A stretch of DNA of 46,870 nucleotides, from positions 1 to 46,870 of IMG/VR virus record IMGVR_UViG_3300010370_000061. One strand, written 5' to 3'. The translations under genes and the position numbers were made by a program. This document shows positions 2,044 through 45,130 of this stretch, piece by piece (the stretch's first letter is position 1; each line of letters begins with the position of its first letter). This DNA comes from a virus. The notes under the pieces were generated by a model. The model ran no database searches, was not told where the DNA came from, and worked only from the letters and a program-made list of their open reading frames with translations.

Positions 2044-3441
2044 TCATTTGCTCTTGCGGACATACTTTCCACGTTTGCTGATATAGGGCGTCAACCAGTG
2101 CAATGTTATACCATCAGGTACTAGGGTAACAAGATGTTTCTGGAATGAATCAGAACCATATACAATTACATCGGTTGTCCCAAGACTCTGCTGTATATGT
2201 TCCAGAGTCAATTTGATCATTCGCTTCTGCTGTTTGTCCATGGCTTTCTCACCACCCATTCGGACTTGCATCATGCAGATTGGCATGTGTTCCGGCAGGG
2301 TATCGAGAAGATAAGAACAATCGCGTTCTGTGTTTGCTGTTCTGAGATTGGGGATTACTTTGACTCCCAGTTCTTGCCAGTATCTTGCACACCAGCGGGA
2401 ACGATAAACAGCCCATAGTCGCTCTGCAAATGGATGATCTTGGTAGACGCTGAAGTCTGGTTCGACAACAGCCATCCATTGTTCTTCTACCAGTCTCTCG
2501 GCCTGTTCTGTTGGGCTGTCATAGAGTTTGTTGATAATCCAATCTTCAGTGAAGAAGCCTAAGAACCCATGACCATTTTCATTGTCGTCTGGCCTAAGTT
2601 CCTTGTCGTCTGTTTTGAAGTCACGGGATGACTCACAATAGTACAACTGAGGTTCATGCTTTTCTCTGGAGAAGGTATCGAGAGGAAGACACTTGGTGTC
2701 AGTGTAAAGCATCTCGGGGAGAAGGTCTGGGATACCCCATTCGTTGCTCGATGGGAACAGAACGTCAGACTGAAGAACAGGGACAACAGCCTCACCTACG
2801 GCTATCTCATCCTCTTCTTCCTGCTGGAATTGTTCCATCAACTCCTTGATGTCCTTGGCTGGTTTAACCTTGGTGATGGTGGTTTTATCCTTTTCACCAG
2901 CCATTACCTTCTCGGCAAAGGATGCCACATCCTTGAACATCCCAAACTTGTCTAGGACGTTCTTGGTCTTCTTGCCCTTCTTGTTCAAGGAGTCTAATGT
3001 GGCTTGTGTCAGAGATGCCAGCGCAGAAGCGTTGACGGAGGCCATGGACGAGGTAGCGTCGATTCCAACGAGGAGTTCCCTCTCCTGTTCCTCAGTCCAT
3101 GCCCCCACATCAACAGGGACGCTCTTATAGCCCTTCTCCAGAGCTAATTCAATCCGGCCATGTCCATTGACCAGTCGATTGGTTGTTGCGTTAAAAAGGA
3201 TTGTCTGAGCCCAGCCAGCACTGGTGATTAGGGCGTCAACGTAGTTCTTCTGCCTGTCAGAGTGTTCCCGCCAATTGAGAGGATTCTTTCGATCCTTCAA
3301 TTCGTGTGGGTCAACAGAATCAACCCTCACTGTCCTCGGCTGTCCGTCGATTACGGGCATACCGTTTTTTCTTAACTGTTCCACGACGATCTGGAACTGG
3401 CTCTTGGGCGTCTTGCTTGACTTCGATTGGGCGGAAGGCAT
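2044..3441 (-). CDS. ParB-like N-terminal domain fused to DUF4417
   Basis: A 465-residue protein. Residues about 25-120 form a ParB/Srx-like domain: VRVDSVDPHELKDRKNPLNWREHSDRQ, then LITSAGWAQTILFN..TNRLVNGHGRIELAL with the GHGR-type box II, and VPVDVGAWTEEQER. A charged linker (about 160-225) precedes a C-terminal DUF4417-type domain of about 180 residues: FFTEDWIINKLYDSP, VVEPDFSVYQDHP, YRSRWCARYWQELGVKVIPNLRT, VIVYG. ParB boxes bind CTP or act as nucleases in various phage proteins. DUF4417 is phage-associated and uncharacterised. Two ATGs lie six bases apart; the second fits AGGA spacing better. The first 122 bases overlap the preceding gene in another frame. Confidence 0.75.
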   Translation of the reverse strand: MPSAQSKSSKTPKSQFQIVVEQLRKNGMPVIDGQPRTVRVDSVDPHELKDRKNPLNWREHSDRQKNYVDALITSAGWAQTILFNATTNRLVNGHGRIELALEKGYKSVPVDVGAWTEEQERELLVGIDATSSMASVNASALASLTQATLDSLNKKGKKTKNVLDKFGMFKDVASFAEKVMAGEKDKTTITKVKPAKDIKELMEQFQQEEEDEIAVGEAVVPVLQSDVLFPSSNEWGIPDLLPEMLYTDTKCLPLDTFSREKHEPQLYYCESSRDFKTDDKELRPDDNENGHGFLGFFTEDWIINKLYDSPTEQAERLVEEQWMAVVEPDFSVYQDHPFAERLWAVYRSRWCARYWQELGVKVIPNLRTANTERDCSYLLDTLPEHMPICMMQVRMGGEKAMDKQQKRMIKLTLEHIQQSLGTTDVIVYGSDSFQKHLVTLVPDGITLHWLTPYISKRGKYVRKSK

Positions 3442-3856
3442 GGTCATCCTGATGGGCTACAGGTAACAAGTTGCTTCTACTTGCTTGATGATTGATGGAA
3501 TTGCTCATGGTCAGAAGAGATACAACCGTATCACTTAACTGAACAAACTTGGCTTTCAGTTCAACCATTTCCCGAAGGACTTGCTGGATGAATATAGTCT
3601 CAGGTGTCATGACCTTCATCCCTTCGTCATGGACACATTTGACCAGATTCATCTGCAAGTCTGGCGGAAGTGGAAGAACCTGAAAGCCTTGTTGTTTGGC
3701 TGGAACTGGAGGATCGACTGGAGCCTGCTGTTGGGGTTCAATCGTCTTGTCTGGTATCTGAGTGGCTGCGACAGAATGGTGTTTTTGCTTCAGATATTCC
3801 TGACGTACACGCATGAACTCTCTAAATTCATCCATGAAGTCGTTTCCAAGTTCCAT
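3320..3856 (-). CDS. Hypothetical protein, possible adaptor for the ParB/DUF4417 protein
   Basis: A 178-residue protein with no recognised family. It has an N-terminal amphipathic helix (MDEFREFMRVRQEYLKQK), a Pro/Gln-rich linker (about 35-58), a helical middle (VLREMVELKAKFVQLSDTVV, coiled-coil-like, about 95-115) and a basic tail (TVKKKRYARNRR). The start ATG follows AAAGGAACCCGCA. Its last 122 bases overlap the start of the ParB-like gene. An A6 run lies in the overlap, so a sequencing indel or +1 slippage could join the two into one long protein. Confidence 0.5.
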   Translation of the reverse strand: MELGNDFMDEFREFMRVRQEYLKQKHHSVAATQIPDKTIEPQQQAPVDPPVPAKQQGFQVLPLPPDLQMNLVKCVHDEGMKVMTPETIFIQQVLREMVELKAKFVQLSDTVVSLLTMSNSINHQASRSNLLPVAHQDDHAFRPIEVKQDAQEPVPDRRGTVKKKRYARNRRTAEDSEG

Positions 3857-15154: not shown

Positions 15155-15335
15155 AGTCAACTCCTTTAATGATGACAGCCTGTAAATCAATCTCGCCTAA
15201 ATGTTTTAGAAGCTCGACAATGTTTGGGACGTAATAATCAGCCATTCCAGCAGTACCTTGGTCAGTCAAGTACACAACACGGTAACAGCGATTACTTCGG
15301 CTCAAGAATCTTTGGTCTGGATTTTCCATTGCCAT
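15051..15335 (-). CDS. Hypothetical protein in recombination operon
   Basis: A 94-residue protein with a plausible alpha/beta core (YRVVYLTDQGTAG, NIVELLKHLGEIDLQAVIIKG) followed by an acidic helix and a Lys/Gln tail. The start ATG follows GGAGAAGC; a second ATG lies two codons later. It overlaps the uracil-glycosylase gene by 44 bases and the nuclease gene by up to 104. No family is recognised. Confidence 0.45.
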   Translation of the reverse strand: MAMENPDQRFLSRSNRCYRVVYLTDQGTAGMADYYVPNIVELLKHLGEIDLQAVIIKGVDCGEETNEEDYKLIAEVQRIHKESAQDKANQKAQH

Positions 15336-15867
15336 GCTTCTCCAAGAACGCCAGTAGCTTGTGTTTGTTCCTTCGGTAAACCAAACAATCATGCCCACCG
15401 CTACGAAGGATAAACGATGGATGATCTAGCTCCAGATGATAAGTTACGCCGGTAGGTGGATTTTGTTTCGCTGTTTTACCCAGAGAAATGTACCAAGATG
15501 GTTTGACAATCTCGATTAACTCATCCAGACGTTCCCGGCAGTTCTTCATCTCATCATCGGATGGTGGACGGGACTTACCTCCTTTCTCTTTTGGGTAACA
15601 GATAATGGTGTTGGTAATGATGTAATTAACCATACCAACATCCTCGATCAATTGATCAAGCAATTGACCGGCAGCACCAACAAAAGGTTTTCCGATTACA
15701 GATTCAGATGGGCCGGGTGCTTCGCCAATCAGCATATAGTTGCAGTAGTCACCGACAATACGATGATGGGATCGCATCTTGCAAGCAATCTCACACCGTT
15801 GACACTTGTTCCACTTGTTCTTGTGGCCGGTGAGATGCCGAGTCCGAGCTAAGTTGAATGGGTTCAT
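15292..15867 (-). CDS. Family 4-type uracil-DNA glycosylase with Fe-S cysteines
   Basis: A 191-residue protein. Diagnostic motifs: Cys22-x2-Cys25, GEAPGPSE (48-55), GKPFVGAAGQLLD, ITNTIICYP, Cys90 and Cys110 (which with the CxxC make four cluster ligands), LGKTA and the C-terminal HPSFILR. Family 4 enzymes remove uracil from DNA and carry a 4Fe-4S cluster. In a phage this could repair deaminated cytosine during replication. Start is the ATG in an ATGA overlap with the resolvase stop. Confidence 0.85.
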   Translation of the reverse strand: MNPFNLARTRHLTGHKNKWNKCQRCEIACKMRSHHRIVGDYCNYMLIGEAPGPSESVIGKPFVGAAGQLLDQLIEDVGMVNYIITNTIICYPKEKGGKSRPPSDDEMKNCRERLDELIEIVKPSWYISLGKTAKQNPPTGVTYHLELDHPSFILRSGGHDCLVYRRNKHKLLAFLEKHGNGKSRPKILEPK

Positions 15868-16283
15868 AATACCTTTAACCATACGCCGGGGTTCTCACGG
15901 TCTAAGATATAAGGGCCGAATGATGGAACGATGATGTCACAGTTGTCGTCAGGAATCCATCCATGCTTGACCATTGCATCTTGAATCGTTTGTGCTGGAT
16001 TGATGTAGTCAAACTTCCTCTTACTGTCTCGGACAAAGGTGAACTCAATCTTGAGAGGATAATCCTTGTCCTCAATCATTTTGAAGAAAACATCTCGCAA
16101 TTGAATGAACTGCTCTTTTGTAGCTTTCTCCCAATTGCGAGTTGTCTTGCTTGAAACCAAGAACTTACCCGTCCATTGTTTGCTGTTCTTGCTGCTTGGC
16201 ACGTTTCCGCGCAAGAAGATACTTGTTGTCTCCCTTGAGCCAAGGGTTGTAATACTTGGCTTCGTGTTCCTTCTGTTGCTCAT
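15864..16283 (-). CDS. rusA: RusA-type Holliday junction resolvase
   Basis: A protein of about 139 residues. It shows a RusA-like N-terminal strand and helix (LRGNVPSSKNSKQWTGKFLVSSKTTRNWEKATKEQF) and the acidic catalytic region FDYINPAQTIQDAMVKHGWIPDDN, matching the D..N..K..DAL...G.I.DD pattern. It cuts four-way junctions from recombination or replication. The start is uncertain: the ATG at 16283 follows AAGG but makes a 119-base overlap with the upstream gene; the conserved region begins only around residue 25. Confidence 0.75.
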   Translation of the reverse strand: MSNRRNTKPSITTLGSRETTSIFLRGNVPSSKNSKQWTGKFLVSSKTTRNWEKATKEQFIQLRDVFFKMIEDKDYPLKIEFTFVRDSKRKFDYINPAQTIQDAMVKHGWIPDDNCDIIVPSFGPYILDRENPGVWLKVL

Positions 16284-16897: not shown

Positions 16898-18457
16898 ATG
16901 GCCTATCGCATCAAGTCGAAGAACACTCTGCCACACATCGTTGTCGAAGCACGCGCAGGTACTGGTAAGACCAGCACCATGATCGCTGGGCTCAACCTGA
17001 TGTTTGGCAACGAACCAAAGTTTCCTCCAACTGAAGAACAGAAAGCAATCTGGGAAGCAATGTCTTCTGGAGGAAAGCCAAGCAGCATCATCTTCGTTGC
17101 GTTCAACAAGTCGATTCAAATTGAACTGCAAGAGAAGGTTCCTCAAGGCGTTGATGCCAAGACTCTGCATGGTCTTGGCTACAGCATCTTGGCTAAGAAT
17201 GGATACAAGATTCAAGCAACAGCAGAAGCAACCCGGTACATCGTGCGTGACCTTCTTGGATATGAGAAGGGCGCCCACATGAGCAAGGAAGACTATCGCG
17301 ACTCGATGGTCGTTGAGAAGATTGTTGGCATCTGCAAGAACAACCTGATTGGTTGGACTGACGAAGAACTGGAAGTTGTGATCGCTGAGAATGACGTTGA
17401 TGTCAACGGCAACAAGGCGCAAGTCTTCAACTTGGTCAAGCAAGTTATGGATAAGACATCCAAGTTGGTTCGCGGCAAGACAAATTGGATCAGCTTCGAT
17501 GACATGATTTGGCTTCCAAACGTCATGGAATTGAAGCAAGACAAGTTTGATTTGATGATTGTTGACGAGTGCCAAGACCTCAATGCTGCACAGCAACAGA
17601 TGGTTCTCAAGTTGGCTAACCGTCTGATTCTCATTGGCGATAGCTTTCAGAGCATCTACGGCTTTCGTGGTGCTGATGTTCGCTCCATGGAACGCATGAC
17701 TGAATATCTCGCCAACACCAAAGTTGGTGTGCAGACCTTGAGTCTGACTACCACATGGCGATGCCCAAAGTTGCATGTTCAGAATGTCAACAAGTACGTT
17801 GCTGACATCAAGGCTGCTGACAACGCAGTTGAAGGTAGCATCGAGAGTTCAAGCAAAGGTGACCTCATCAAGAACGCAAAGTCTGGTGACATGGTTATCA
17901 GCCGTATCAATGCCAACTTGTGTGAAGTGGCGTTCAAGTTGATTCGTCGTGGAACGCCATGCCGGATTCTTGGCCGCGACTATGGCGCTAACCTCATTAG
18001 CCTCATCAAGAAACTTGATACTGACAACAACATCGAGTCTCTGGTTAAAGCACTTGCAGATTGGCGAGCCGATGAGGAAGCCCGTATCAACAAAGCCTAC
18101 ACCTTCCCCGAGAAGCAATTGAATCTTCTGGCAGAGAAGTATCAATCTTTGCTGCACCTCGCTGGAGGGCTCAAGCAAGTCAATCAATTGATTGACCGTA
18201 TCGACAGCCTGTTCAGCAGCAAACTGACTGCAAGCCAGTCTGTAACGCTCTCAACAGTACATAAAGCCAAGGGTCTTGAATCAGAAGTTGTGTACATCCT
18301 CAATCGCGAAAAGATGCCACACCCAATGGCTAAGAAGGAATGGGAGCGACAACAAGAAACAAATCTGATCTACGTTGCTGAGACACGCAGCAAGGATCGT
18401 TTGGTGTATGTCAGCGATGACATGGATGATGAACCAGAATCTGGTTTTGCCAATTAG
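16898..18457 (+). CDS. UvrD/Rep-type superfamily 1A DNA helicase
   Basis: A 519-residue protein starting at the ATG after CAGGAG. SF1A motifs in order: I, EARAGTGKTST (near residue 18); Ia, IIFVAFNKSIQIEL; TLHGLGYS; II, MIVDECQDLN; III, LIGDSFQSIYGFRGAD; IV, TLSLTTTWRCP; V, STVHKAKGLESEVVYIL; VI, NLIYVAETRSKDRLVYV. At this length it lacks the large insertion domains of UvrD and is closer to compact phage helicases. It probably assists fork progression or recombination and is transcribed divergently from the replication operon. Confidence 0.9.
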   Translation: MAYRIKSKNTLPHIVVEARAGTGKTSTMIAGLNLMFGNEPKFPPTEEQKAIWEAMSSGGKPSSIIFVAFNKSIQIELQEKVPQGVDAKTLHGLGYSILAKNGYKIQATAEATRYIVRDLLGYEKGAHMSKEDYRDSMVVEKIVGICKNNLIGWTDEELEVVIAENDVDVNGNKAQVFNLVKQVMDKTSKLVRGKTNWISFDDMIWLPNVMELKQDKFDLMIVDECQDLNAAQQQMVLKLANRLILIGDSFQSIYGFRGADVRSMERMTEYLANTKVGVQTLSLTTTWRCPKLHVQNVNKYVADIKAADNAVEGSIESSSKGDLIKNAKSGDMVISRINANLCEVAFKLIRRGTPCRILGRDYGANLISLIKKLDTDNNIESLVKALADWRADEEARINKAYTFPEKQLNLLAEKYQSLLHLAGGLKQVNQLIDRIDSLFSSKLTASQSVTLSTVHKAKGLESEVVYILNREKMPHPMAKKEWERQQETNLIYVAETRSKDRLVYVSDDMDDEPESGFAN

Positions 18458-18502: not shown

Positions 18503-18724
18503 ATGTGCGATGAACAAAACAAAGTCCTTCAAGAAGTAGCCCAAGAGTACCGGGTTGATTTTCTGGAGAAGAACAGCGACCGATGGAAGTCTGGTACTCT
18601 GACGTTTGATTCGCGGGAAGAAGCAACCCAACATGCAATTGATGTGGTCAATGCTGAGTTGACTATGTTTGTTGAATATCAGGTTGTTCTGGCAACGGAG
18701 CCTGTTGATCAACTCGTCTTTTGA
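18503..18724 (+). CDS. Hypothetical protein downstream of helicase
   Basis: A 73-residue acidic protein starting at the ATG after GGAGAATGTATT. An N-terminal helix (VLQEVAQEYRVDFLEKN) precedes WKSGTLTFDSREEATQHAIDVVNAEL, a strand-helix unit like small ferredoxin-like or RNA-binding folds, then a final strand. No family is recognised. It is the last gene of the plus-strand helicase unit and ends about 90 bases before a strong terminator. Confidence 0.5.
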   Translation: MCDEQNKVLQEVAQEYRVDFLEKNSDRWKSGTLTFDSREEATQHAIDVVNAELTMFVEYQVVLATEPVDQLVF

Positions 18725-18914
18725 AGCAACAGTTTGAGCAGAGCATAATCCGTTGATTTTCTTCGTAGGGAATCACGGTAGCTTCAACAAACTTCTCACA
18801 ATTGAAAACTGTAACGGCAGGCTGGAAACCACAACATCCAGCCTGCCTTCTTTTTGGCTCTCCACGAAAATCGCATGGAGCGCGTTCAAGAACAGTCAGT
18901 TCAATCATGTTCAT
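18663..18914 (-). CDS. Cys-rich small protein associated with glycosyltransferases
   Basis: An 83-residue protein. The start is the ATG overlapping the glycosyltransferase stop as ATGA, with no separate Shine-Dalgarno, so it depends on coupling. Cysteines lie in APCDFRGEPKRRQAGCCG, TVFNCEKF and IMLCSNCCFKRR, a C..RGE..R..CC....C....CxxCC layout that I recall for small zinc-binding-like proteins next to glycosyltransferases in planctomycetes. It converges with and overlaps the plus-strand gene by 62 bases, and a plus-strand terminator hairpin lies inside it. Function unknown. Confidence 0.5.
   Translation of the reverse strand: MNMIELTVLERAPCDFRGEPKRRQAGCCGFQPAVTVFNCEKFVEATVIPYEENQRIMLCSNCCFKRRVDQQAPLPEQPDIQQT
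18816..18855 (+). terminator. Rho-independent terminator of the helicase unit
   Basis: A perfect 11-bp stem GGCAGGCTGGA/TCCAGCCTGCC (18816-18826 with 18837-18847) has a 10-nt loop, then TTCTTTTT on the plus strand. It ends transcription of the helicase unit and lies within the coding sequence of the convergent Cys-rich gene. Confidence 0.9.
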
Positions 18915-19639
18915 AGGTTGGACGCTTTCAGAAACTCAATTGCCAGCTTGACGTAATTCTGTTGCCATCGAGGTTCAAGAACTACATCACCCGCGACGAT
19001 TGGTTTATCTCCAATTCTATTCCATTCATTCTTATTAAGAGATAAATGGTTGTGACTGATATTCCAACGATAAATGTAAAACATCATCCTTGGATTTATT
19101 ACTTCGCCATTCAATGGATAGCCAAGTCTAACAAGTGTTCTATTGAAAACTTGATCTTCATCTCCCATTGCATGTAAGTGCATCGGATAGCCGTTGCCAA
19201 ACTTACCAAGAACTTTCCTCGACCAGATACTCATGTTATGAGAGTTGCCGGGAAACTGAGTCATCTTGACAATTCTGTTCACGTTCCAGAAGTAATGATT
19301 CTCACATCGCCATTCATCCTTGTCAGCCATCCTCATCGCTGAGAATGACAATCGCCAAGGCATTGAGATGTCATCGTCATCCCATCGACAGAAAGCATCA
19401 CCTTCAGCGTGCGCGATCATGAATCGAAGTTTGTGAGTCAGCGATTCAAATCTGTCTGGCACGTTTAGAACTTTTACGCTCGGATGACTGAAGTGTAAGA
19501 ACTGACCCGGTGTGTCATTGCAGATGATAAGTTCTTTGTCTTCGTAGTTCTGAATCAGGAATGAATTAACAGCCTCATTTACCAGATGGATTTGTTCTGG
19601 ATAACGATTGTATGTCGGGAGTAGGCATGTAATTTTCAT
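18911..19639 (-). CDS. Glycosyltransferase family 2-like protein
   Basis: A 242-residue GT-A fold protein. It opens with ITCLLPTYNR, then SFLIQNYEDKELIICNDTPG, and the DXD-type metal site CRWDDDDISMPWRL. Later residues (NSHNMSIWSRKVLGKFG, GDEDQVFNRTL) match the acceptor part of GT2 enzymes. It transfers a sugar from a nucleotide-sugar donor; the acceptor is unknown. It overlaps the upstream fused glycosyltransferase gene by four bases (ATGA) and the Cys-rich gene downstream, so it belongs to one coupled operon headed by the mucin-like virion protein. Confidence 0.85.
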   Translation of the reverse strand: MKITCLLPTYNRYPEQIHLVNEAVNSFLIQNYEDKELIICNDTPGQFLHFSHPSVKVLNVPDRFESLTHKLRFMIAHAEGDAFCRWDDDDISMPWRLSFSAMRMADKDEWRCENHYFWNVNRIVKMTQFPGNSHNMSIWSRKVLGKFGNGYPMHLHAMGDEDQVFNRTLVRLGYPLNGEVINPRMMFYIYRWNISHNHLSLNKNEWNRIGDKPIVAGDVVLEPRWQQNYVKLAIEFLKASNL

Positions 19640-21636
19640 TGCTTCTGACTTTCCTCTGCTCTACGAATTGCTTCATCGACAAGAGAACCAAACAGGTCAG
19701 AGATTTTAATCTTTCCTGCAAATGAGCAGGTTGCTGACCTGATACCGGCAAACAAAAGTTCAGTCCATTTGTATTTGGTGGAATTGTCCTTCAAGCCCTG
19801 AACAATTCTTGATCTCTCTTGACGGCAACCATCTACGCCGAGGAAGTCCATTTCAGCGGCAAGACGATTACAAGAACAGTTCTCTGCTGGCTTGATGCCA
19901 AGTTCAGCGTTCATCGCCTTTAACTCTGTACCCGGCCCTTTGCCAATCTTCCAAGCCATTACATTTTGCTTTGGATGGTCTTCTTCTCGGCAACCAAGAA
20001 TTGTCAAACCATATTCATTGGATGTGTAGAAGATTGGTTTCCATTGAGGATTGTCATCACAGAACGCGCGGAGAACAAAATTCAACCCTTGGCTACCAGT
20101 TGAATCAACATCACCGTAGACAAACGTATCGTGAATTACGATGAATCGTTTGATTCGATTGTGATAATTCGTCAGGTGTTGCTGAAGGGTTGATGACTTT
20201 CCATCAGTATCAATAAATAGAGTGTCAAATTCATCTGGCACATTGTGATACGGTTCAGCATGATTCTGTACACGATTTAGTGTAAGTGTTACCGGCTTGT
20301 TGTAGGTAGTTCGTTCCAAGACGCTATTTAACGAATTGGTAACATCGTCCAGTTCTGATTGGTATGAAACCAGAAGTGATGGGCCACCAGCCAAGAAAGC
20401 AATTGTTGATTCACGACGATGCGTGAACTCGACAACACTATTGCTACGTTCAGCAACCATCTTTAGTGTTGGGAAGTGTTTATCCAAGTCGCGAGGAACA
20501 TTTGAATAGTAGTTGTAGAGGTCATGCACTACACAAGTGTTGAGATCGGGCATGGTAACAATTCTTTGTTCCGATTGCTTTTTCTCAAGCATCTCTTTTG
20601 GTGACGCTGTGTTTCTTGCTTTATAACCTACAGGGTCATCAACAATCTTTTGCCATTCTGTTTCTGGAAGTAGTTTGTTGGAAACAAAATGGTTGTAGAT
20701 TGAGTCAAGTGGAAGCCCAACTTCATTGAAAGCAAGAACATAGTTTCTGACCTTGTTACGACGATCAACTGAATAGTTGATGTCTTCAGGGCCATTGAAC
20801 TTATGATTCCATTTAAGAAATGGAAGACAGATACATCGCCTGCCAGCATTTCGGTATTTGGTGTGAATATAACCTTCTTCACCACCAAACCCTCTCATGT
20901 GTGGGTTGAACCCCAGCCATGACTCAGTTCGAGCCAGAAACAAACCAAGACCCATGGCTGGGATCTCAAACTCATAGCCACGATCAATTGCTGTTTGATA
21001 CCCAAGTTGTTCAAGAATTGATTGGTGGCCGTAGTACAAAACCTTCTTACCAAGGTTGTACTCAGTTATCTCTGGAGAAAGTTTGATGAACTTGCAACGA
21101 GCGTCTTCAATTGGGTGCTGAATGACTGAGAAGTATTCACCGTTCTCATGATCCCACCATGCAGTTCCCCATTTGCCCCACATCTCAGAATCCCAGATGA
21201 GATCAAAATGTGTTGATGCAGTAACAAGATCATCCATCATGATTGGGCCACTCATCAAATCATCGCGGTGAACCTCGCCTGTGTTACCTTGCAACTGGCG
21301 AACCAACTCTTGTAATGCGCCTGGTACAAGCAGAATGTGCGAATCAATGCACATCGTCCACTCTGTCTCTGATTTGTTAAACACCATTTGCCGGGGTTGT
21401 GTTGTCCCAAACAATTCTGGAGGACAAACAAAATATCGACATCGGATGTCACCAGAATGATTGGCTAAGAATGTTTGTGTCTTCTTGCCGTCAACAGTAT
21501 CTGGTGCGTTGTCAACAACGAGAATTTCTACCGGCAAATTGTATTTCACAATCTCCATCTTCAATGCTTGAACCGTAGCCCACAGCATTTTGAAGTCATT
21601 GTGAACCGCCATTCCAACAGTGAGGATGTTTTTCAT
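19636..21636 (-). CDS. Glycosyltransferase fused to a SAM-methyltransferase-like domain and Cys-rich tail
   Basis: A 666-residue protein in three parts. Residues 1 to about 330 are a GT-A domain (LTVGMAVHNDF, EILVVDNAPD, metal site CIDSHILLVPG with Asp-Ser-His, GFNPHMRGFGGEEGYI). Residues about 370-560 resemble a class I methyltransferase/cephalosporin-hydroxylase-like fold (VVHDLYNYYSNVPRDL, VVEFTHRRESTIAFLAGGPSLLVSYQ, FDTLFIDTDGKSST, RFIVIHDTFVYGD). The end contains AENCSCNRLAAEMDFLGVDGC, a CxC...C pattern typical of phage and planctomycete glycosylation proteins. Seven bases separate it from the mucin-like gene. It could modify that protein or host polysaccharide. Confidence 0.75.
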   Translation of the reverse strand: MKNILTVGMAVHNDFKMLWATVQALKMEIVKYNLPVEILVVDNAPDTVDGKKTQTFLANHSGDIRCRYFVCPPELFGTTQPRQMVFNKSETEWTMCIDSHILLVPGALQELVRQLQGNTGEVHRDDLMSGPIMMDDLVTASTHFDLIWDSEMWGKWGTAWWDHENGEYFSVIQHPIEDARCKFIKLSPEITEYNLGKKVLYYGHQSILEQLGYQTAIDRGYEFEIPAMGLGLFLARTESWLGFNPHMRGFGGEEGYIHTKYRNAGRRCICLPFLKWNHKFNGPEDINYSVDRRNKVRNYVLAFNEVGLPLDSIYNHFVSNKLLPETEWQKIVDDPVGYKARNTASPKEMLEKKQSEQRIVTMPDLNTCVVHDLYNYYSNVPRDLDKHFPTLKMVAERSNSVVEFTHRRESTIAFLAGGPSLLVSYQSELDDVTNSLNSVLERTTYNKPVTLTLNRVQNHAEPYHNVPDEFDTLFIDTDGKSSTLQQHLTNYHNRIKRFIVIHDTFVYGDVDSTGSQGLNFVLRAFCDDNPQWKPIFYTSNEYGLTILGCREEDHPKQNVMAWKIGKGPGTELKAMNAELGIKPAENCSCNRLAAEMDFLGVDGCRQERSRIVQGLKDNSTKYKWTELLFAGIRSATCSFAGKIKISDLFGSLVDEAIRRAEESQKQ

Positions 21637-21642
21637 CGGGCA

Positions 21643-24339
21643 TTATCCGGGGACAAGGGTTGTAGTTGTCGTTGTCGATGATGTTGTGGTGGTAGTTGTT
21701 GTAGTCGTAGTAGTGGTGGTTGTGGTCGTCGTTGTAGTAGTTGTGGTTGTGGTAGTTGTAGTAGTTGGAGAAGCACATGGGACTGTTGTTGGGTCATCAC
21801 AGTAAGTTCCAACAACATTGTCTGGACAACCACATTCAAGTAATGCGCCGCCACCACAATTCGATGAAATTAACACATAGGCATTGTTGACGCAACTGTA
21901 AACACAGCTACCTGTACATTCACCATAGCAGGCGTCACAAACTGTTCCAGCACCAAGCCAGTTGCCGACATTTGCATTGCACTCTGCTTCGGTTGTGATT
22001 GTGCAACTATCTTGTGGGTAGTCACAGCAAGCACCAGTTGGTGTGGCAGTTGTAGTCGTAGTTGTTGAAGAAGTGGTTGTGGTTGTTGTCGTTGATACCC
22101 TGTTACAACCAACCTTAATTGAATCACCAGCGCCTGTTGGGCTCCGGTAAGCAGGCCCGCAATAACAATCACCGTTGCACTTGTCTACCGGCAGTTCATC
22201 CCAGAATGTTCCTGTTGATGATCTTCGGATGCAGTAAGAACATTCAACTGATGGTGTTGTAGTAGTGGTGTAACACTCATCACAATTTCTACAGCCACGA
22301 TCACCTTCGCAGTCAGTGTAATAAAGTTTACAAGGATCTGGGTTTGTTATTGAAGGTGGTGTTAGACAACCACAAGTTCTTGGATCATCAAAATCACAAG
22401 TTAATGACTGGCATGTATTACAAATGTTAAACCAACATAAATCGTCATCTGCTGGTGGTTGCAAATCTAAACCTGAACATGGTGCGTACACCCATGTACA
22501 AACACCATTACAACAAATTGATGGATTTATACATTCGCCTTGACAACTAGAATGATATGTGTCACCACAATCAGGGTTTTGTGGCAAGTCAATCGGGTTT
22601 ATATCACTGCAATTGCAAGCGTTACAATCTTGCGTTCCAGAATACCCAACACAACACAAATCATAATCTGCTCCGCAATAATCTGGTGTTCTGTTATCTA
22701 CACCAACACCGCATTGCCAATTAGTTAAATACCATCTAATTATTGTTTCACCAGTACAATTTGTTGATATGTCTTGGTAAGCAATAAAATCACAACCCGG
22801 CCTGCTCGCACAGTTAGAATAAAATTTAGTTGTCGTTGTGTTGCAATTGCATGTGGTTGTAGAGCAGTATGGTGGGTCGTTGTCATCCACGTTGTCAGTG
22901 CAATATGTGATTGTCACATCACCATCTGCATCACCGCAGAAATCTGGATACTTACATTCACACGGAACAGTTGTAGTTGTTGTTGTTGAGCTATGCGTTG
23001 TATAGCAATCTTGGAAGTCAGGGTCTGGTGTTGTGCTTGTTGTTGTGCTGGATGTACTGGTAACAACATCTGCGCAATTATCATACGAGATTGACCAAGC
23101 CTTTGTTGGTGCATCCCACTCCCAAGTACAATAGCCAGTGCAATCAGCAGTAACTGGTGGTGGTACAGATGTTGATGATGTAGTACTGGATGTTGTAACT
23201 TCAGTATCCATAAAGATTTCGATCTCGCGATCAAACTCTGGAAACTGATAGTTCATCATGTCAAGTGATTTGACTTGAGTGAACATCCCGGACTGACCAT
23301 TGTAGATTCCGTGGAAGAACTCAATGTAATGGCAAGAAGCATCCGGCTTGAACGGGATGATGCCGAAGTAAGTTGCATCTTTTCTATTCAGCGGTGTAAA
23401 CGAATCGTAGTACAACGTGCTGAGGATACAGGCGAGAATTGTAAGTTCTTCAAAGTATGTCGATGCGCGTGCATGGTCTGGATCGTAAATGTTATAAACA
23501 TTCAAATCCTTCTTCATACCATCTTTGAATGTTTCTGTACCACCGTATGTATTTGGGCATACAACCGGGTCATTCCAGAATGTTGAATTGAATTGCCGGT
23601 ACTTCACCTGCAATTCTTCTGGGAGATAGGGAGCAAAGATGGTGCTATCAAATTTCTTGCTGACTAGCCTGCCAACATTGTCATCAAACAAATCCAAGTT
23701 TGTATTGTCGATATAAGAATTTCGTTTGATGCTGAATGTTGAACCAACACCATGATCTTTATAAACCTGATGACTGGCAAGCTGAAGAACATCATTCAGC
23801 ATGTTCCAATCAGAGTTGGTTGTTTGTGTGGCAACATCCCGCAGCATGATGGCAGGAAACTTGGCATTGGTCTTATCAACACCAGCCCAAGCTGAATTGA
23901 TGTTTGTGTTGTTCCAGTAAGTCTGTAATGCGGCTGACCAACTGGTTGCCCTTCCTGCTTGGCTGAATTTCTCATGCGGTGGGAACGGATCAAAATTCAA
24001 TCTCGTTTCATGGTGAAAAGCCACATGCCGCTGGTCTGCAATCTTGACCAAGAAAAGCTGATTCGTGCTATTGACCGGGTTAGAAGCATTAACCTCGGTG
24101 ATCATCAGATTGTTGATGGTAACAGTTTCGTTACCATCAGAGATTTTTAGCTGCAAGTCATCGCGGTTGATGAGGGCTGGTAAATCATCCTTGAGAAGCA
24201 GGACATGCCCGTAACCAGACATCCTGCCACCAACCAGACAGAAGCCAAACCGCACCCCATTTTTCTGGAAGAAAGAAAGGATTTCGTCGGTTGGATAGAC
24301 ACAAGCAACCCCGCCGAGGGATGTGTAGGCAGCGCCCAT
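21643..24339 (-). CDS. Mucin-like virion protein: structured N-terminus, Cys-rich modules, poly-threonine linkers
   Basis: An 898-residue protein starting at the ATG after AAGGATC. Residues 1 to about 410 look like a conventional virion or tail protein (GVRFGFCLVGGRMSGYGHVLLL, FHHETRLNFDPFP, YLPEELQVKYRQFNSTFW). The other half alternates Thr/Ser-rich linkers (TTSSTTSSTS, STTTSTT, STTTTTT) with short Cys-rich modules (ADCTGYCTWEW, PCECKYPDFCGD, TGACCDYPQDSC, ECTGSCVYSC). The C-terminus has 28 consecutive Thr, SS, six Thr and LVPG. Such architecture is that of mucin-like, O-glycosylated adhesins. Two glycosyltransferases follow immediately. A fibre or receptor-binding surface protein is likely; glycosylation is inferred. 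Confidence 0.6.
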   Translation of the reverse strand: MGAAYTSLGGVACVYPTDEILSFFQKNGVRFGFCLVGGRMSGYGHVLLLKDDLPALINRDDLQLKISDGNETVTINNLMITEVNASNPVNSTNQLFLVKIADQRHVAFHHETRLNFDPFPPHEKFSQAGRATSWSAALQTYWNNTNINSAWAGVDKTNAKFPAIMLRDVATQTTNSDWNMLNDVLQLASHQVYKDHGVGSTFSIKRNSYIDNTNLDLFDDNVGRLVSKKFDSTIFAPYLPEELQVKYRQFNSTFWNDPVVCPNTYGGTETFKDGMKKDLNVYNIYDPDHARASTYFEELTILACILSTLYYDSFTPLNRKDATYFGIIPFKPDASCHYIEFFHGIYNGQSGMFTQVKSLDMMNYQFPEFDREIEIFMDTEVTTSSTTSSTSVPPPVTADCTGYCTWEWDAPTKAWSISYDNCADVVTSTSSTTTSTTPDPDFQDCYTTHSSTTTTTTVPCECKYPDFCGDADGDVTITYCTDNVDDNDPPYCSTTTCNCNTTTTKFYSNCASRPGCDFIAYQDISTNCTGETIIRWYLTNWQCGVGVDNRTPDYCGADYDLCCVGYSGTQDCNACNCSDINPIDLPQNPDCGDTYHSSCQGECINPSICCNGVCTWVYAPCSGLDLQPPADDDLCWFNICNTCQSLTCDFDDPRTCGCLTPPSITNPDPCKLYYTDCEGDRGCRNCDECYTTTTTPSVECSYCIRRSSTGTFWDELPVDKCNGDCYCGPAYRSPTGAGDSIKVGCNRVSTTTTTTTSSTTTTTTATPTGACCDYPQDSCTITTEAECNANVGNWLGAGTVCDACYGECTGSCVYSCVNNAYVLISSNCGGGALLECGCPDNVVGTYCDDPTTVPCASPTTTTTTTTTTTTTTTTTTTTTTTTTTTTSSTTTTTTLVPG
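21658..21765 (-). repeat. Poly-threonine codon tract (36 codons)
   Basis: The tract consists of 36 codons encoding six Thr, two Ser and 28 Thr in genome order. All four ACN codons are mixed irregularly, so the DNA is a degenerate, not pure, trinucleotide repeat. This points to selection on the protein sequence rather than recent slippage. Confidence 0.9.
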
Positions 24340-24765: not shown

Positions 24766-26043
24766 TTAAGCCACCAGACCAAGCTCAGTTTCACCTTCTG
24801 GTGGCATTTCCTCCCCTTCCGTGGGTTGTTCTGGAGGTTGACCGGGCTGGGGAGGCTGACCCGGCATGACTGGGGCTTGTTCGGTTGGGAATAGCTCACC
24901 TTCGGTTCCGGGCGTTCCGGGGGCTGAATTGAGGGGGAACGGCATCGCGTCGAAGGTGTCGTAGGGGAGTAGTCCTAGCCGGGCGTTAATTTGCACCAGA
25001 GGCTTGATAATCTGGTCTACAACGTCATTAAGAAGATTCAGCAGTAGTTCGTACAGGACACTGTAAAACGCATCCTCGGGGATACTACGACCGGAGGATG
25101 ACCCGAATCCTTGTGAACCGGATGACTCGATGACTTCTGGAGGGATGCCGAGGGCTTCTAGGATTTCCACACGAAGGGACTGACCGTATTCAAACAGACC
25201 TGATGGAATTGTATTTCCTCGGGCTGCTTCGTAGTCCCAGCGTTTGTTACCTCGCTGATCAGTGTCAGAGGGGAGAGTCATGACAGCCCCAGCCCGTTTC
25301 TTTTCAATCATCTCTTGCGCGATGTCTTGGTATGAACGGATTCGACCATCCGGGAGTTGAACGGTTCCTTGTGGGTGTCGCATGATGCCACCCTCAAATG
25401 CGTTCTTGTAGAACCACAGACGGCGTACATCGCGGTATCCACCTTCACTCCAGATTTCATTCCATGGGACATGCGCTGCATACAGACGGGATAGACCGTA
25501 GTGCTTGTTGTATTCCTTCCAGTGAACGTGATGGAAGGCTTTAGGGCCACCAAGGTAAACAGCTTTACCGGGGGCCATGTTGATGGTCTGGTAATTGGAT
25601 ACCAAGATGCCAACACGTTGACCTTTGTTGGTGACTACTTTGACTGACGGTGGTTCAAAGTCATTGAGCTTGCAGTAGACAACACGACCTGTCTTTTCAT
25701 CTTGTTCGTATTCCACTTCGCAACCACTGTACCCCCATTCGATTGCTTTGAGAGCTTGGGTGACTCCTTGCCGCCAGAATCGTTTGATTTGATCTTGGAC
25801 GAACTCTTGCACTTCAGGGGTATCTGATTCAACTTTGAATCGAGCCTTTGCCATCAAGTGACCTTTGATGATCCAGAGTCCAAACCGGACACGAGGGTCA
25901 ATTAGCATCTCCCTGATGGTGTAAGTGTTGAATAGCGGACGGTTGCGGGTGTACCCCCATTGAGCCCAATAAGTTCCGGGAACGTAGTCAGTGACTTGGG
26001 TGTTTAAGAGGTCATTGATGTTGACCAGCATTTCGCGTGGCAT
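24766..26043 (-). CDS. Portal protein, DUF935/Mu gp29-like
   Basis: A 425-residue protein. Portal hallmarks: a helical N-terminus with RVRFGLWIIKGHLMAKARFKV, AIEWGYSGCEVEYEQDE, then HWKEYNKHYGLSRLYAAHVPW, RLWFYKNAFEGGIMRHP and EILEALGIPPEVIES, a long stem/crown helix (YSVLYELLLNLLNDVVDQIIKPL), and a disordered Pro/Glu C-terminus (about 380-425). Twelve copies form the vertex ring through which the terminase packages DNA. It is encoded last in the tail cluster, far from the terminase gene. The start ATG follows GAGGAACG and lies inside the frameshifted gene end. Confidence 0.85.
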   Translation of the reverse strand: MPREMLVNINDLLNTQVTDYVPGTYWAQWGYTRNRPLFNTYTIREMLIDPRVRFGLWIIKGHLMAKARFKVESDTPEVQEFVQDQIKRFWRQGVTQALKAIEWGYSGCEVEYEQDEKTGRVVYCKLNDFEPPSVKVVTNKGQRVGILVSNYQTINMAPGKAVYLGGPKAFHHVHWKEYNKHYGLSRLYAAHVPWNEIWSEGGYRDVRRLWFYKNAFEGGIMRHPQGTVQLPDGRIRSYQDIAQEMIEKKRAGAVMTLPSDTDQRGNKRWDYEAARGNTIPSGLFEYGQSLRVEILEALGIPPEVIESSGSQGFGSSSGRSIPEDAFYSVLYELLLNLLNDVVDQIIKPLVQINARLGLLPYDTFDAMPFPLNSAPGTPGTEGELFPTEQAPVMPGQPPQPGQPPEQPTEGEEMPPEGETELGLVA

Positions 26044-42261: not shown

Positions 42262-42480
42262 CTACTTATCCTTTTGATGCTCGTCAATTGCTTTCAACAT
42301 ATCCTTGACTGTTGCATCAGCCAAATCACGCACTTCACCATGATCTGCAATTTCGTGTAAATATCTGTATGCACTCAATTTCTGGATATTCTCTGTGTGT
42401 CGTTCCTTCCAAGCCTTCGATCCAACCTTGGTTCGATAATCAATCTCATCCAAGTGGCCCCATTTGGGTTCTTTAGGCAT
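42262..42480 (-). CDS. Small hypothetical protein next to methyltransferase
   Basis: A 72-residue protein, charged and mostly helical (GSKAWKERHTENIQKLSAYRYLHEI, TVKDMLKAIDEHQKDK). The start ATG follows GGAGGAAATAG and overlaps the methyltransferase stop by eight bases. No family is recognised. Confidence 0.45.
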   Translation of the reverse strand: MPKEPKWGHLDEIDYRTKVGSKAWKERHTENIQKLSAYRYLHEIADHGEVRDLADATVKDMLKAIDEHQKDK

Positions 42481-43231
42481 CTATTTCCTCCAATCTCTGT
42501 TTGATCGATTCACAATAAGCCTCACTTACATCGCAAGTAATGCTATTCCTACCAAGTTTCTTGGCAACTGCGCTGGTAGTTCCAGAGCCGCCAAATGGGT
42601 CAAATACAGTGTCATCTGCATTGGAATAGGCTCTGATAATCCTTTCCAGATACTTTTCCGGCAATTGGTTGTCATGCAACTTCCTTCTTTCCTTGTTATT
42701 CCCTTGAATACGACCCCAACCAGAACCATCAATCTCAGGAATACCCCAGACAGTACCCGGTAATCTCATTCCACCTCGTTCTGTTTCGTGAACCCGCTTG
42801 TCCTTGTACTTGGTTGCCCTAAGCGATGGAACAAGTACATCATCTGGGTTCCATGTTGGGCTAGAACCTTCTCTGGAAGCAACCAACAGGTGGGTTCTCG
42901 CGTCAACCCAATTGGTTCTGCGGCATTGACCAAACCCGTAGTACAGGTTCACCCAACTTCTCAGCTTCCATCCAGAAACATCCAACCATTTCAGGTAAAT
43001 CCGGCAAAGTTTATCCGGGCCATGCAAGCAGAGCGTTCCATTCCTTCTTGCATACCGCGAAACATGGCTGATTCTCTCCAATAACCACTGTTCAAACCGT
43101 GTTTCTTCCATTTTATCGTCATGTGTGTCGTACTTCCTGCCGATGTTAAACGGTGGATCCATGAACCCAAGATGGTACTTCCCATGCCGGTAATCCAAAC
43201 AATCTTCGCAATAAACCCGATGTTCTGTCAT
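42473..43231 (-). CDS. DNA methyltransferase, beta class (N4/N6 type)
   Basis: A 252-residue protein starting at the ATG after TGGAGGGAAAA. Catalytic motif IV DPPF (25-28) comes first and the SAM-binding FDPFGGSGTT (motif I) near residue 220, which is the beta-class order. Between them lie a target-recognition region with VNLYYGFGQCRRTNWVDARTHLLVASR and LPGTVWGIPEIDG, and HDNQLPEKYLERII as motif X. It could methylate phage DNA against host restriction. It is probably read from the divergent region shared with the plus-strand gene at 43320. Confidence 0.85.
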   Translation of the reverse strand: MTEHRVYCEDCLDYRHGKYHLGFMDPPFNIGRKYDTHDDKMEETRFEQWLLERISHVSRYARRNGTLCLHGPDKLCRIYLKWLDVSGWKLRSWVNLYYGFGQCRRTNWVDARTHLLVASREGSSPTWNPDDVLVPSLRATKYKDKRVHETERGGMRLPGTVWGIPEIDGSGWGRIQGNNKERRKLHDNQLPEKYLERIIRAYSNADDTVFDPFGGSGTTSAVAKKLGRNSITCDVSEAYCESIKQRLEEIDA

Positions 43232-43251
43232 TTTTCCCTCCAGAAACCTTG

Positions 43252-43288
43252 TTGACATTGACGATAGATTGATGTTAGTATATCTATC
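43252..43288 (+). promoter_or_regulatory. Plus-strand promoter with 7-bp inverted repeat
   Basis: Two overlapping -35 elements, TTGACA (43252-43257) and TTGACG (43258-43263). The second is 17 bp from TATCTA (43281-43286). GATAGAT (43263-43269) and ATCTATC (43282-43288) are inverted and cover the second promoter. The octamer AGATTGAT (43266-43273) also forms half of the operator-like repeat at 16823-16845. Confidence 0.6.
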
Positions 43289-44674: not shown

Positions 44675-45130
44675 ATGAGCAAACTTGATGTCCATTTCAG
44701 TAGCCAGAAGATGGACTGGGAAACACCAGATGACTTGTTCCAGCAATGGAACAACATTTATAACTTTGACTTGGATGTATGCGCTACCAAGCACAACGCC
44801 AAATGCAAGAAGTTCTACTCACCTAAGACCAATGGATTGAAACAACGCTGGCGAGGTAACTGCTGGATGAATCCACCATACGGCAGAGAACTAAAGAAGT
44901 GGGTGGAGAAAGCACATCGATCATCCATGACCGGCAAGTGCTGTGTAGTCTGTCTCATACCAGCGAGAACAGATACCAAGATGTTCCATGATTACATCTG
45001 GGACAAAGAACTAGGTAGACCGTATCCCGGCATACAAGTTCATTTTCTGAAGGGAAGAGTGAAGTTCAAAGGTGCTGAAGCATCTGCGCCATTCCCATCC
45101 ATGATTGTCGTATTTGGAGAGAAGCAATGA
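44675..45130 (+). CDS. Phage-type DNA N6-adenine methyltransferase (Dam-like)
   Basis: A 151-residue protein. Family features in order: DWETPDDLFQQWNNIYNFDLDVCA, NAKCKKFY, catalytic NPPYGR (66-71), CVVCLIPARTDTKMFH, HFLKGRVKF, APFPSMIVVF. This matches the short phage N-6-adenine-methyltransferase family, which methylates adenine in short sites and may confer resistance to restriction. Together with the beta-class enzyme, the phage has two methyltransferases. Confidence 0.85.
   Translation: MSKLDVHFSSQKMDWETPDDLFQQWNNIYNFDLDVCATKHNAKCKKFYSPKTNGLKQRWRGNCWMNPPYGRELKKWVEKAHRSSMTGKCCVVCLIPARTDTKMFHDYIWDKELGRPYPGIQVHFLKGRVKFKGAEASAPFPSMIVVFGEKQ

Follow-up and report, generated by a model that had tools for sequence, protein, structure and literature searches.

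We analysed a 46,870-base virus record, IMGVR_UViG_3300010370_000061 (the whole stretch is called the window below), in which four genes on the minus strand form a putative cassette for O-glycosylation of a mucin-like phage protein. The cassette lies at positions 18663-24339, where the first-pass annotation of this DNA had rightly placed it. Its first open reading frame (21643..24339; ATG start at 24339, stop at 21643) encodes an 898-residue, virion-type protein rich in Thr and Cys (Thr/Cys protein), in which an N-terminal domain is followed by Cys-rich modules split by Thr/Ser linkers. The second gene (19636..21636) encodes a 666-residue fusion of a GT-A glycosyltransferase (GT) domain resembling polypeptide N-acetylgalactosaminyltransferases (polypeptide GalNAc-transferases, ppGalNAc-T) and a class I methyltransferase-like domain. 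It is followed by a 242-residue GT2 glycosyltransferase with a WDDDD motif (18911..19639) and by a small Cys-rich protein of 83 residues (18663..18914). The reading frames bear out the earlier gene order of Thr/Cys protein, fusion, GT2 and small Cys-rich protein. A 6-bp gap separates the Thr/Cys gene from the fusion gene, and 4-bp stop/start overlaps follow along the downstream genes. This spacing is consistent with one transcript for the cassette genes, as had been proposed. A near-identical IMG/VR contig (34 kb, 99.98%) spans the cassette region and carries the same genes.

Beyond about residue 400, Thr makes up 21% and Cys 11.7% of the Thr/Cys protein, compared with 8% Thr and 1.3% Cys in residues 1-400. 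Its T/S runs are 10, 11, 8, 5, 16 and 36 residues long. The last of these, in the C-terminal linker, includes 28 consecutive Thr encoded by mixed synonymous ACN codons (21682..21765, minus strand). Translation and composition thus agree with the first-pass description of an 898-residue protein with Thr/Ser linkers alternating with Cys-rich modules and a run of 28 Thr. All four Thr codons occur in the runs (ACA 31, ACT 17, ACC 11 and ACG 6), and the entropy of Thr-codon use is 1.77 bits for the runs, compared with 1.65 bits for the remainder of the gene and 1.87 bits for the whole window. Because the four codons are used about as elsewhere in the gene, the Thr runs are maintained at the protein level. 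We compared the window protein with that of L152, a relative from another sample (L numbers denote loci from our scans). T or S was kept at 79 of the 86 run positions, a conservation that may be inflated by low-complexity alignment, and 17 of the 24 changes within runs were exchanges between T and S. Outside the runs, 70 of 121 T/S positions stayed T or S. As judged from the aligned sequences, this interchange of T and S in the linkers suggests that a hydroxyl acceptor is under selection. A DNA microsatellite or a frameshift artefact as the origin of the poly-Thr was ruled out by the mixed codons and by the T/S conservation in relatives.

Residues 1 to about 380 make up the N-terminal domain (23200..24339, minus strand), which is conserved in L152 and L153, with 277/380 and 155/372 residues identical to the window protein, respectively. 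Judged from its position, it is probably the virion anchor. Neither Pfam nor PHROG models matched the Thr/Cys protein. The Cys modules of the window (21643-23170) and its relatives align to the consensus CxxxCxW...W...CxxxCxCxxP...C, and no Pfam family matches the proteins. Six Cys are near-invariant and are often joined by a seventh, so that many modules appear odd in Cys count. Metal binding, disulfides between modules or Cys modification are possible.

Pfam labels the GT domain of the fusion (residues 1-330; 20647..21636, minus strand) as generic GT2, with a match over residues 6-117. An AlphaFold model of this domain, built with a 56-sequence alignment, had a mean confidence (predicted local distance difference test, pLDDT) of 95.1. 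When this model was searched against the PDB with Foldseek, the top 44 matches were all ppGalNAc-T enzymes, with a best E of 1.3e-12 and template modelling (TM) scores of 0.50-0.62 by query length. The top 46 Foldseek matches of the whole-fusion model (pLDDT 68) were also ppGalNAc-T enzymes. A profile of seven sequences searched against the PDB matched GalNAc-T10 along most of the domain (positions 9-239, E = 6.7e-6), and GalNAc-T4 and T7 likewise; bacterial GT2 structures aligned over the N-terminal half of the domain in the same search.

All 56 phage and bacterial sequences keep D98, H100, G251-G252-E253-E254 and H278 without change; the search pattern had required part of the FGGE segment and none of D98, H100 or H278. 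The wider motifs are F250-G-G-E253-E254 and H278-x-F280. When the domain is aligned with GalNAc-T10, DxH is matched to DSH and H278 to the His of PCSRVGH. DxH in place of DxD has been described as confined to families GT27 and GT60, which are said to have polypeptide Ser/Thr O-glycosylation in common, and a C-terminal His has been noted as a metal ligand in GT27 (PMC7185993). In a GT27 enzyme, the Asp, the His and a distal His hold the catalytic Mn (PMC11074326). The fusion thus has in common with the GT27 polypeptide GalNAc-transferases the GT-A fold, the DxH, the distal metal-binding His and the GGE motif. Because the ppGalNAc-T fold is combined with the DxH and the distal His, the predicted structure and the motifs make it most likely that the domain acts as a polypeptide O-glycosyltransferase-like enzyme.

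The methyltransferase-like domain of the fusion (about residues 372-560; 19957..20523, minus strand) had no Pfam match in the window protein. Among five aligned fusion proteins, Methyltransf_24 was matched in three and RMNT_CmcI in two. The GT2 enzyme matches Pfam PF00535 and is SpsA-like in a PDB search. In relatives, the gene between the fusion and the GT2 varies. It encodes a sulfotransferase (Sulfotransfer_2) in L170 and L179, a second methyltransferase (Methyltransf_24) in L155 and a GT2-like protein in L177; the L206 record also contains a sulfotransferase gene (Sulfotransfer_2). With these variants, the locus reads as a putative glycan-decorating locus. The small Cys-rich protein has no Pfam or PHROG match. 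A like protein was found only in the two closest relatives, L152 and L153, and we therefore regard it as peripheral to the cassette. Its inclusion by the first-pass annotation is right for the window and does not extend beyond these two.

We scanned IMG/VR from the enzyme side with the GT domain alone as the query. This gave 386 relatives, and the best 80 loci formed 47 clusters. In 24 of the 47 clusters, the same methyltransferase-like domain was fused to the GT domain. A Thr/Cys-rich gene lay beside the fusion in 24 of 24 fusion clusters, although shared ancestry makes the loci less independent than such counts imply (the clusters share less than 85% identity and come from several tail modules). 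It was directly upstream of the fusion in 21 (20 by script, plus L160, which was added on inspection since its gene start had been mis-called) and separated from it by one gene in 3. Each locus had only about one gene of the Thr/Cys type (24 of the 218 other genes that encode 150 residues or more). A GT2 resembling the second enzyme of the window was near the fusion in 21 of the 24 clusters. The first-pass annotation had suggested a neighbourhood search, which might have found these glycosyltransferases mostly without Thr/Cys proteins in related phages; the opposite was found. For the clusters without the fusion (n = 22), a gene with Thr runs was directly upstream in 13, and a Thr/Cys gene was directly downstream in 2 more. 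In two phages with a shorter GT and no methyltransferase (L178:7992-10143 and L207:8001-10270), the gene immediately downstream of the GT is of the Thr/Cys type.

The linkage was also seen from the poly-Thr side. A 21-Thr codon pattern matched at least 120 stretches in IMG/VR contigs. Most of the matches listed were Thr-rich without Cys, and about a dozen had the Thr-plus-Cys architecture. Among the matches listed, a GT2-family domain was found within 2 kb downstream in 7 of 12 Thr-plus-Cys records vs. 6 of 50 Thr-only records (Fisher p = 0.0016; neighbours were counted by hand, and one of the seven is a sub-cut-off match). Found from both the enzyme side and the poly-Thr side, the linkage does not reflect chance in a single genome.

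We consider it likely that these genes form a dedicated virion O-glycosylation cassette, in which O-glycans are started on the Thr/Ser linkers by the fusion and then lengthened and decorated by the enzymes encoded next to it. From the genes, their linkage, the predicted fold and the active-site residues, the reaction, acceptor, sugar, virion location and role may be sketched as follows. The Thr/Cys protein would be made with the tail proteins and enter the virion via its N-terminal domain, probably at the tip of the tail. Thr/Ser of the linkers would receive the first sugar, taken from a host nucleotide sugar, through the GT-A domain of the fusion, and the second GT2 would lengthen the chain. 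The fused methyltransferase may cap or decorate the glycan, as may the sulfotransferase or second methyltransferase in relatives. The product would be a phage mucin with stiff glycosylated strings and Cys-rich beads, serving as an extended adhesin or a shield.

Several observations weigh against this reading. The similarity of the fusion to GT27 is only about 15% identity with TM scores of 0.50-0.62, and with the 56-sequence profile the match to GalNAc-T10 drops to a short stretch with E = 1.3e-3. The lectin domain of GT27 is absent, the C-terminal half being methyltransferase-like, and GGEE is found where GT27 has GGEN. Because of the missing lectin domain, the low identity and the GGEE, we do not claim GT27 membership. 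The phage fusion also differs from GT27 enzymes in lacking a membrane anchor and in being methyltransferase-fused and phage-encoded, its donor and acceptor being predicted. Some Thr/Cys proteins occur without a GT2 domain in the contig. An example is L026:6754-8541, which has the same module type, lies in a 31.9-kb contig without a detectable GT2 and adjoins a Cys-rich protein of 718 residues. About 67 of 72 bacterial loci of the wider GT family have no Thr/Cys neighbour, so that the GT domain alone does not predict the acceptor. The first-pass proposal that the Thr linkers of the neighbouring protein are the target of these enzymes has strong support from the linkage in all fusion clusters and from the likeness to polypeptide Ser/Thr O-glycosyltransferases; a weaker point is that the wider family in bacteria mostly lacks such a neighbour.

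The position of the cassette in the phage genomes bears on the alternatives. In many relatives, the tape-measure gene is followed in order by genes of about 300 and about 160 residues, the Thr/Cys gene, the fusion, a variable gene and the GT2. The tape-measure genes upstream of the Thr/Cys gene match PHROG models, and the Thr/Cys relatives typically sit at the end of the tail operon. The putative acceptor gene is therefore among structural genes beside the GT, after the tape measure in relatives and after the portal in the window, where the upstream gene (24766..26043, minus strand) encodes a Mu-type portal protein (PF06074 and phrog_113). Other genes are found in front of the cassette in L158/L169/L231, in L177/L161 and in the window/L152/L153. 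We infer from this position that the Thr/Cys protein is a tail-tip or tail-fibre protein. Hydropathy analysis found no membrane-like segment in the cassette proteins, which is consistent with virion assembly in the cytoplasm.

Prophages commonly carry serotype-converting genes. The enzymes might likewise modify the host surface for superinfection exclusion or seroconversion, as gtr clusters do, with the adjacent Thr/Cys gene merely sharing a late variable region. In bacterial genomes, related GT-A domains commonly occur with no Thr/Cys gene beside them, which would fit this explanation. However, neither enzyme has a membrane-like segment, and the end-of-tail-operon position and the constant Thr/Cys link across differing tail modules also argue against it; although no search aimed at GtrA or flippase genes was made, we regard it as unlikely. 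An equally improbable alternative is that the cassette glycosylates another virion protein, such as the capsid or tail tube, with the Thr/Cys protein serving as a spacer-type fibre that carries no modification. Phage enzymes glycosylate capsid and tail-tube proteins in mycobacteriophages (PMC12363180), and this documented case is its precedent. Against it, the linkage is specific to the Thr/Cys gene, and the linkers retain hydroxyl residues while T and S swap. Hypermodification of phage DNA by the glycosyltransferases is very improbable: virus-encoded DNA glycosyltransferases are known (Pyle 2024, as cited in PMC12619734), but PF00303, the thymidylate-synthase family that includes base hydroxymethylases, occurs in only 1 of 24 cassette records (the window has none, and neither do 22 of the 23 others; many of the records are fragments), and the enzymes adjoin tail genes and resemble polypeptide glycosyltransferases.

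The dedicated O-glycosylation cassette can be compared with known systems. Its Thr/Cys protein resembles animal mucins in having Thr/Ser-rich strings that alternate with Cys-rich modules, and the ppGalNAc-T enzymes, which its GT-A domain resembles, initiate the glycans of mucins in animals. The mycobacteriophages Che8, Corndog and Myrna are alike in encoding a glycosyltransferase for their own virion proteins, as is proposed here. They differ in that the acceptors are capsid and tail-tube proteins rather than a dedicated Thr/Cys protein beside the enzymes; this comparison is by description and not by enzyme sequence. In Gram-positive bacteria, dedicated glycosyltransferases lie beside a hydroxyl-rich adhesin (PMC5207161). 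These serine-rich repeat adhesins (Fap1 and relatives) share with the phage cassette a low-complexity, hydroxyl-rich adhesin beside several dedicated glycosyltransferases. Unlike the cassette, they are bacterial, secreted cell-wall adhesins, not viral, with two-protein Gtf12 (GtfAB) initiation and no Thr/Cys modules. Neither a GtfA/GtfB pair nor an accessory Sec system was noticed in the gene lists of our loci, although no search aimed at them was made.

A tblastn search of 50,697 phage records with the window Thr/Cys protein and fusion gave no match. With two other fusions, the same search gave nothing or only a 73-residue match, and no phage with the whole enzyme was found. Single-protein scans of IMG/VR returned only the near-identical contig; relatives were found with the poly-Thr pattern and an alignment-based scan. 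No relevant paper came up in literature searches on poly-Thr proteins of phages or on polypeptide GalNAc-transferases encoded by phages. A GT27-like enzyme and methyltransferase fusion linked to a mucin-like phage protein was thus found neither in the phage collection nor in the literature searches. The first-pass annotation had suggested that the self-contained unit would be new for phages. Because glycosylation of virion proteins by phage enzymes is already known from mycobacteriophages (PMC12363180), only the particular unit is new.

The scan of bacterial genomes with the GT domain gave information on hosts. In a Pirellulales metagenome-assembled genome (MAG), locus L231 encodes the fusion and a phage integrase along with a Thr/Cys protein. 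Two further loci are in Gemmata sp. IIL30: L281, with a PHROG tape measure, a 385-residue gene, a Thr/Cys protein and a glycosyltransferase in the same order, and L287, which is less clear. Because the prophage of the Pirellulales MAG and the Gemmata isolate carry the cassette, planctomycete hosts are pointed to, and by analogy the host of the window phage may be a planctomycete. The presence of the cassette in the Gemmata isolate genome also makes it directly testable.

More tentatively, and with rather less than even confidence, we propose that true mucins are made by phages that infect planctomycetes and other bacteria, with a viral enzyme of the GT27/GT60 mechanistic class starting the linker glycans and its neighbours extending, methylating and sometimes sulfating them. 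If so, mucin-type O-glycosylation would not be confined to eukaryotes but would also occur in viruses that infect bacteria. Should the chemistry be confirmed, many uncultured phages, a large group, would have dedicated enzymes for building mucin-like tail proteins that bear glycans, and mucin-type O-glycosylation would have a prokaryotic counterpart. The cassette would then also provide a compact soluble enzyme set for glycoprotein production in bacteria and a lead on how planctomycete phages meet their hosts.

Related arrangements were seen in bacterial chromosomes. In a Thermomicrobiales chromosome (L232:4487-8900), the gene for a Cys/Thr-rich protein of 1108 residues with a twin-arginine-like leader lies shortly before that of a GT from the family of the cassette enzyme, and a second such Cys/Thr-rich protein lies at 11153-13171 of L232. 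This locus could represent a cellular version of the phage cassette whose product is secreted. In Rhizocola hellebori (L298:6242-8831), the gene for a poly-Thr/Pro protein with hydrophobic C-terminal segments ends one base before a reading frame for a GT of the same family. Elsewhere in the window, we found genes for a DUF4417 protein (2044-3447), a member of the uracil-DNA-glycosylase family (15292-15882), a UvrD-like helicase on the strand opposite to the cassette (16898-18457), an N6/N4 DNA methylase (42473-43258) and a Dam-like methylase (44675-45130).

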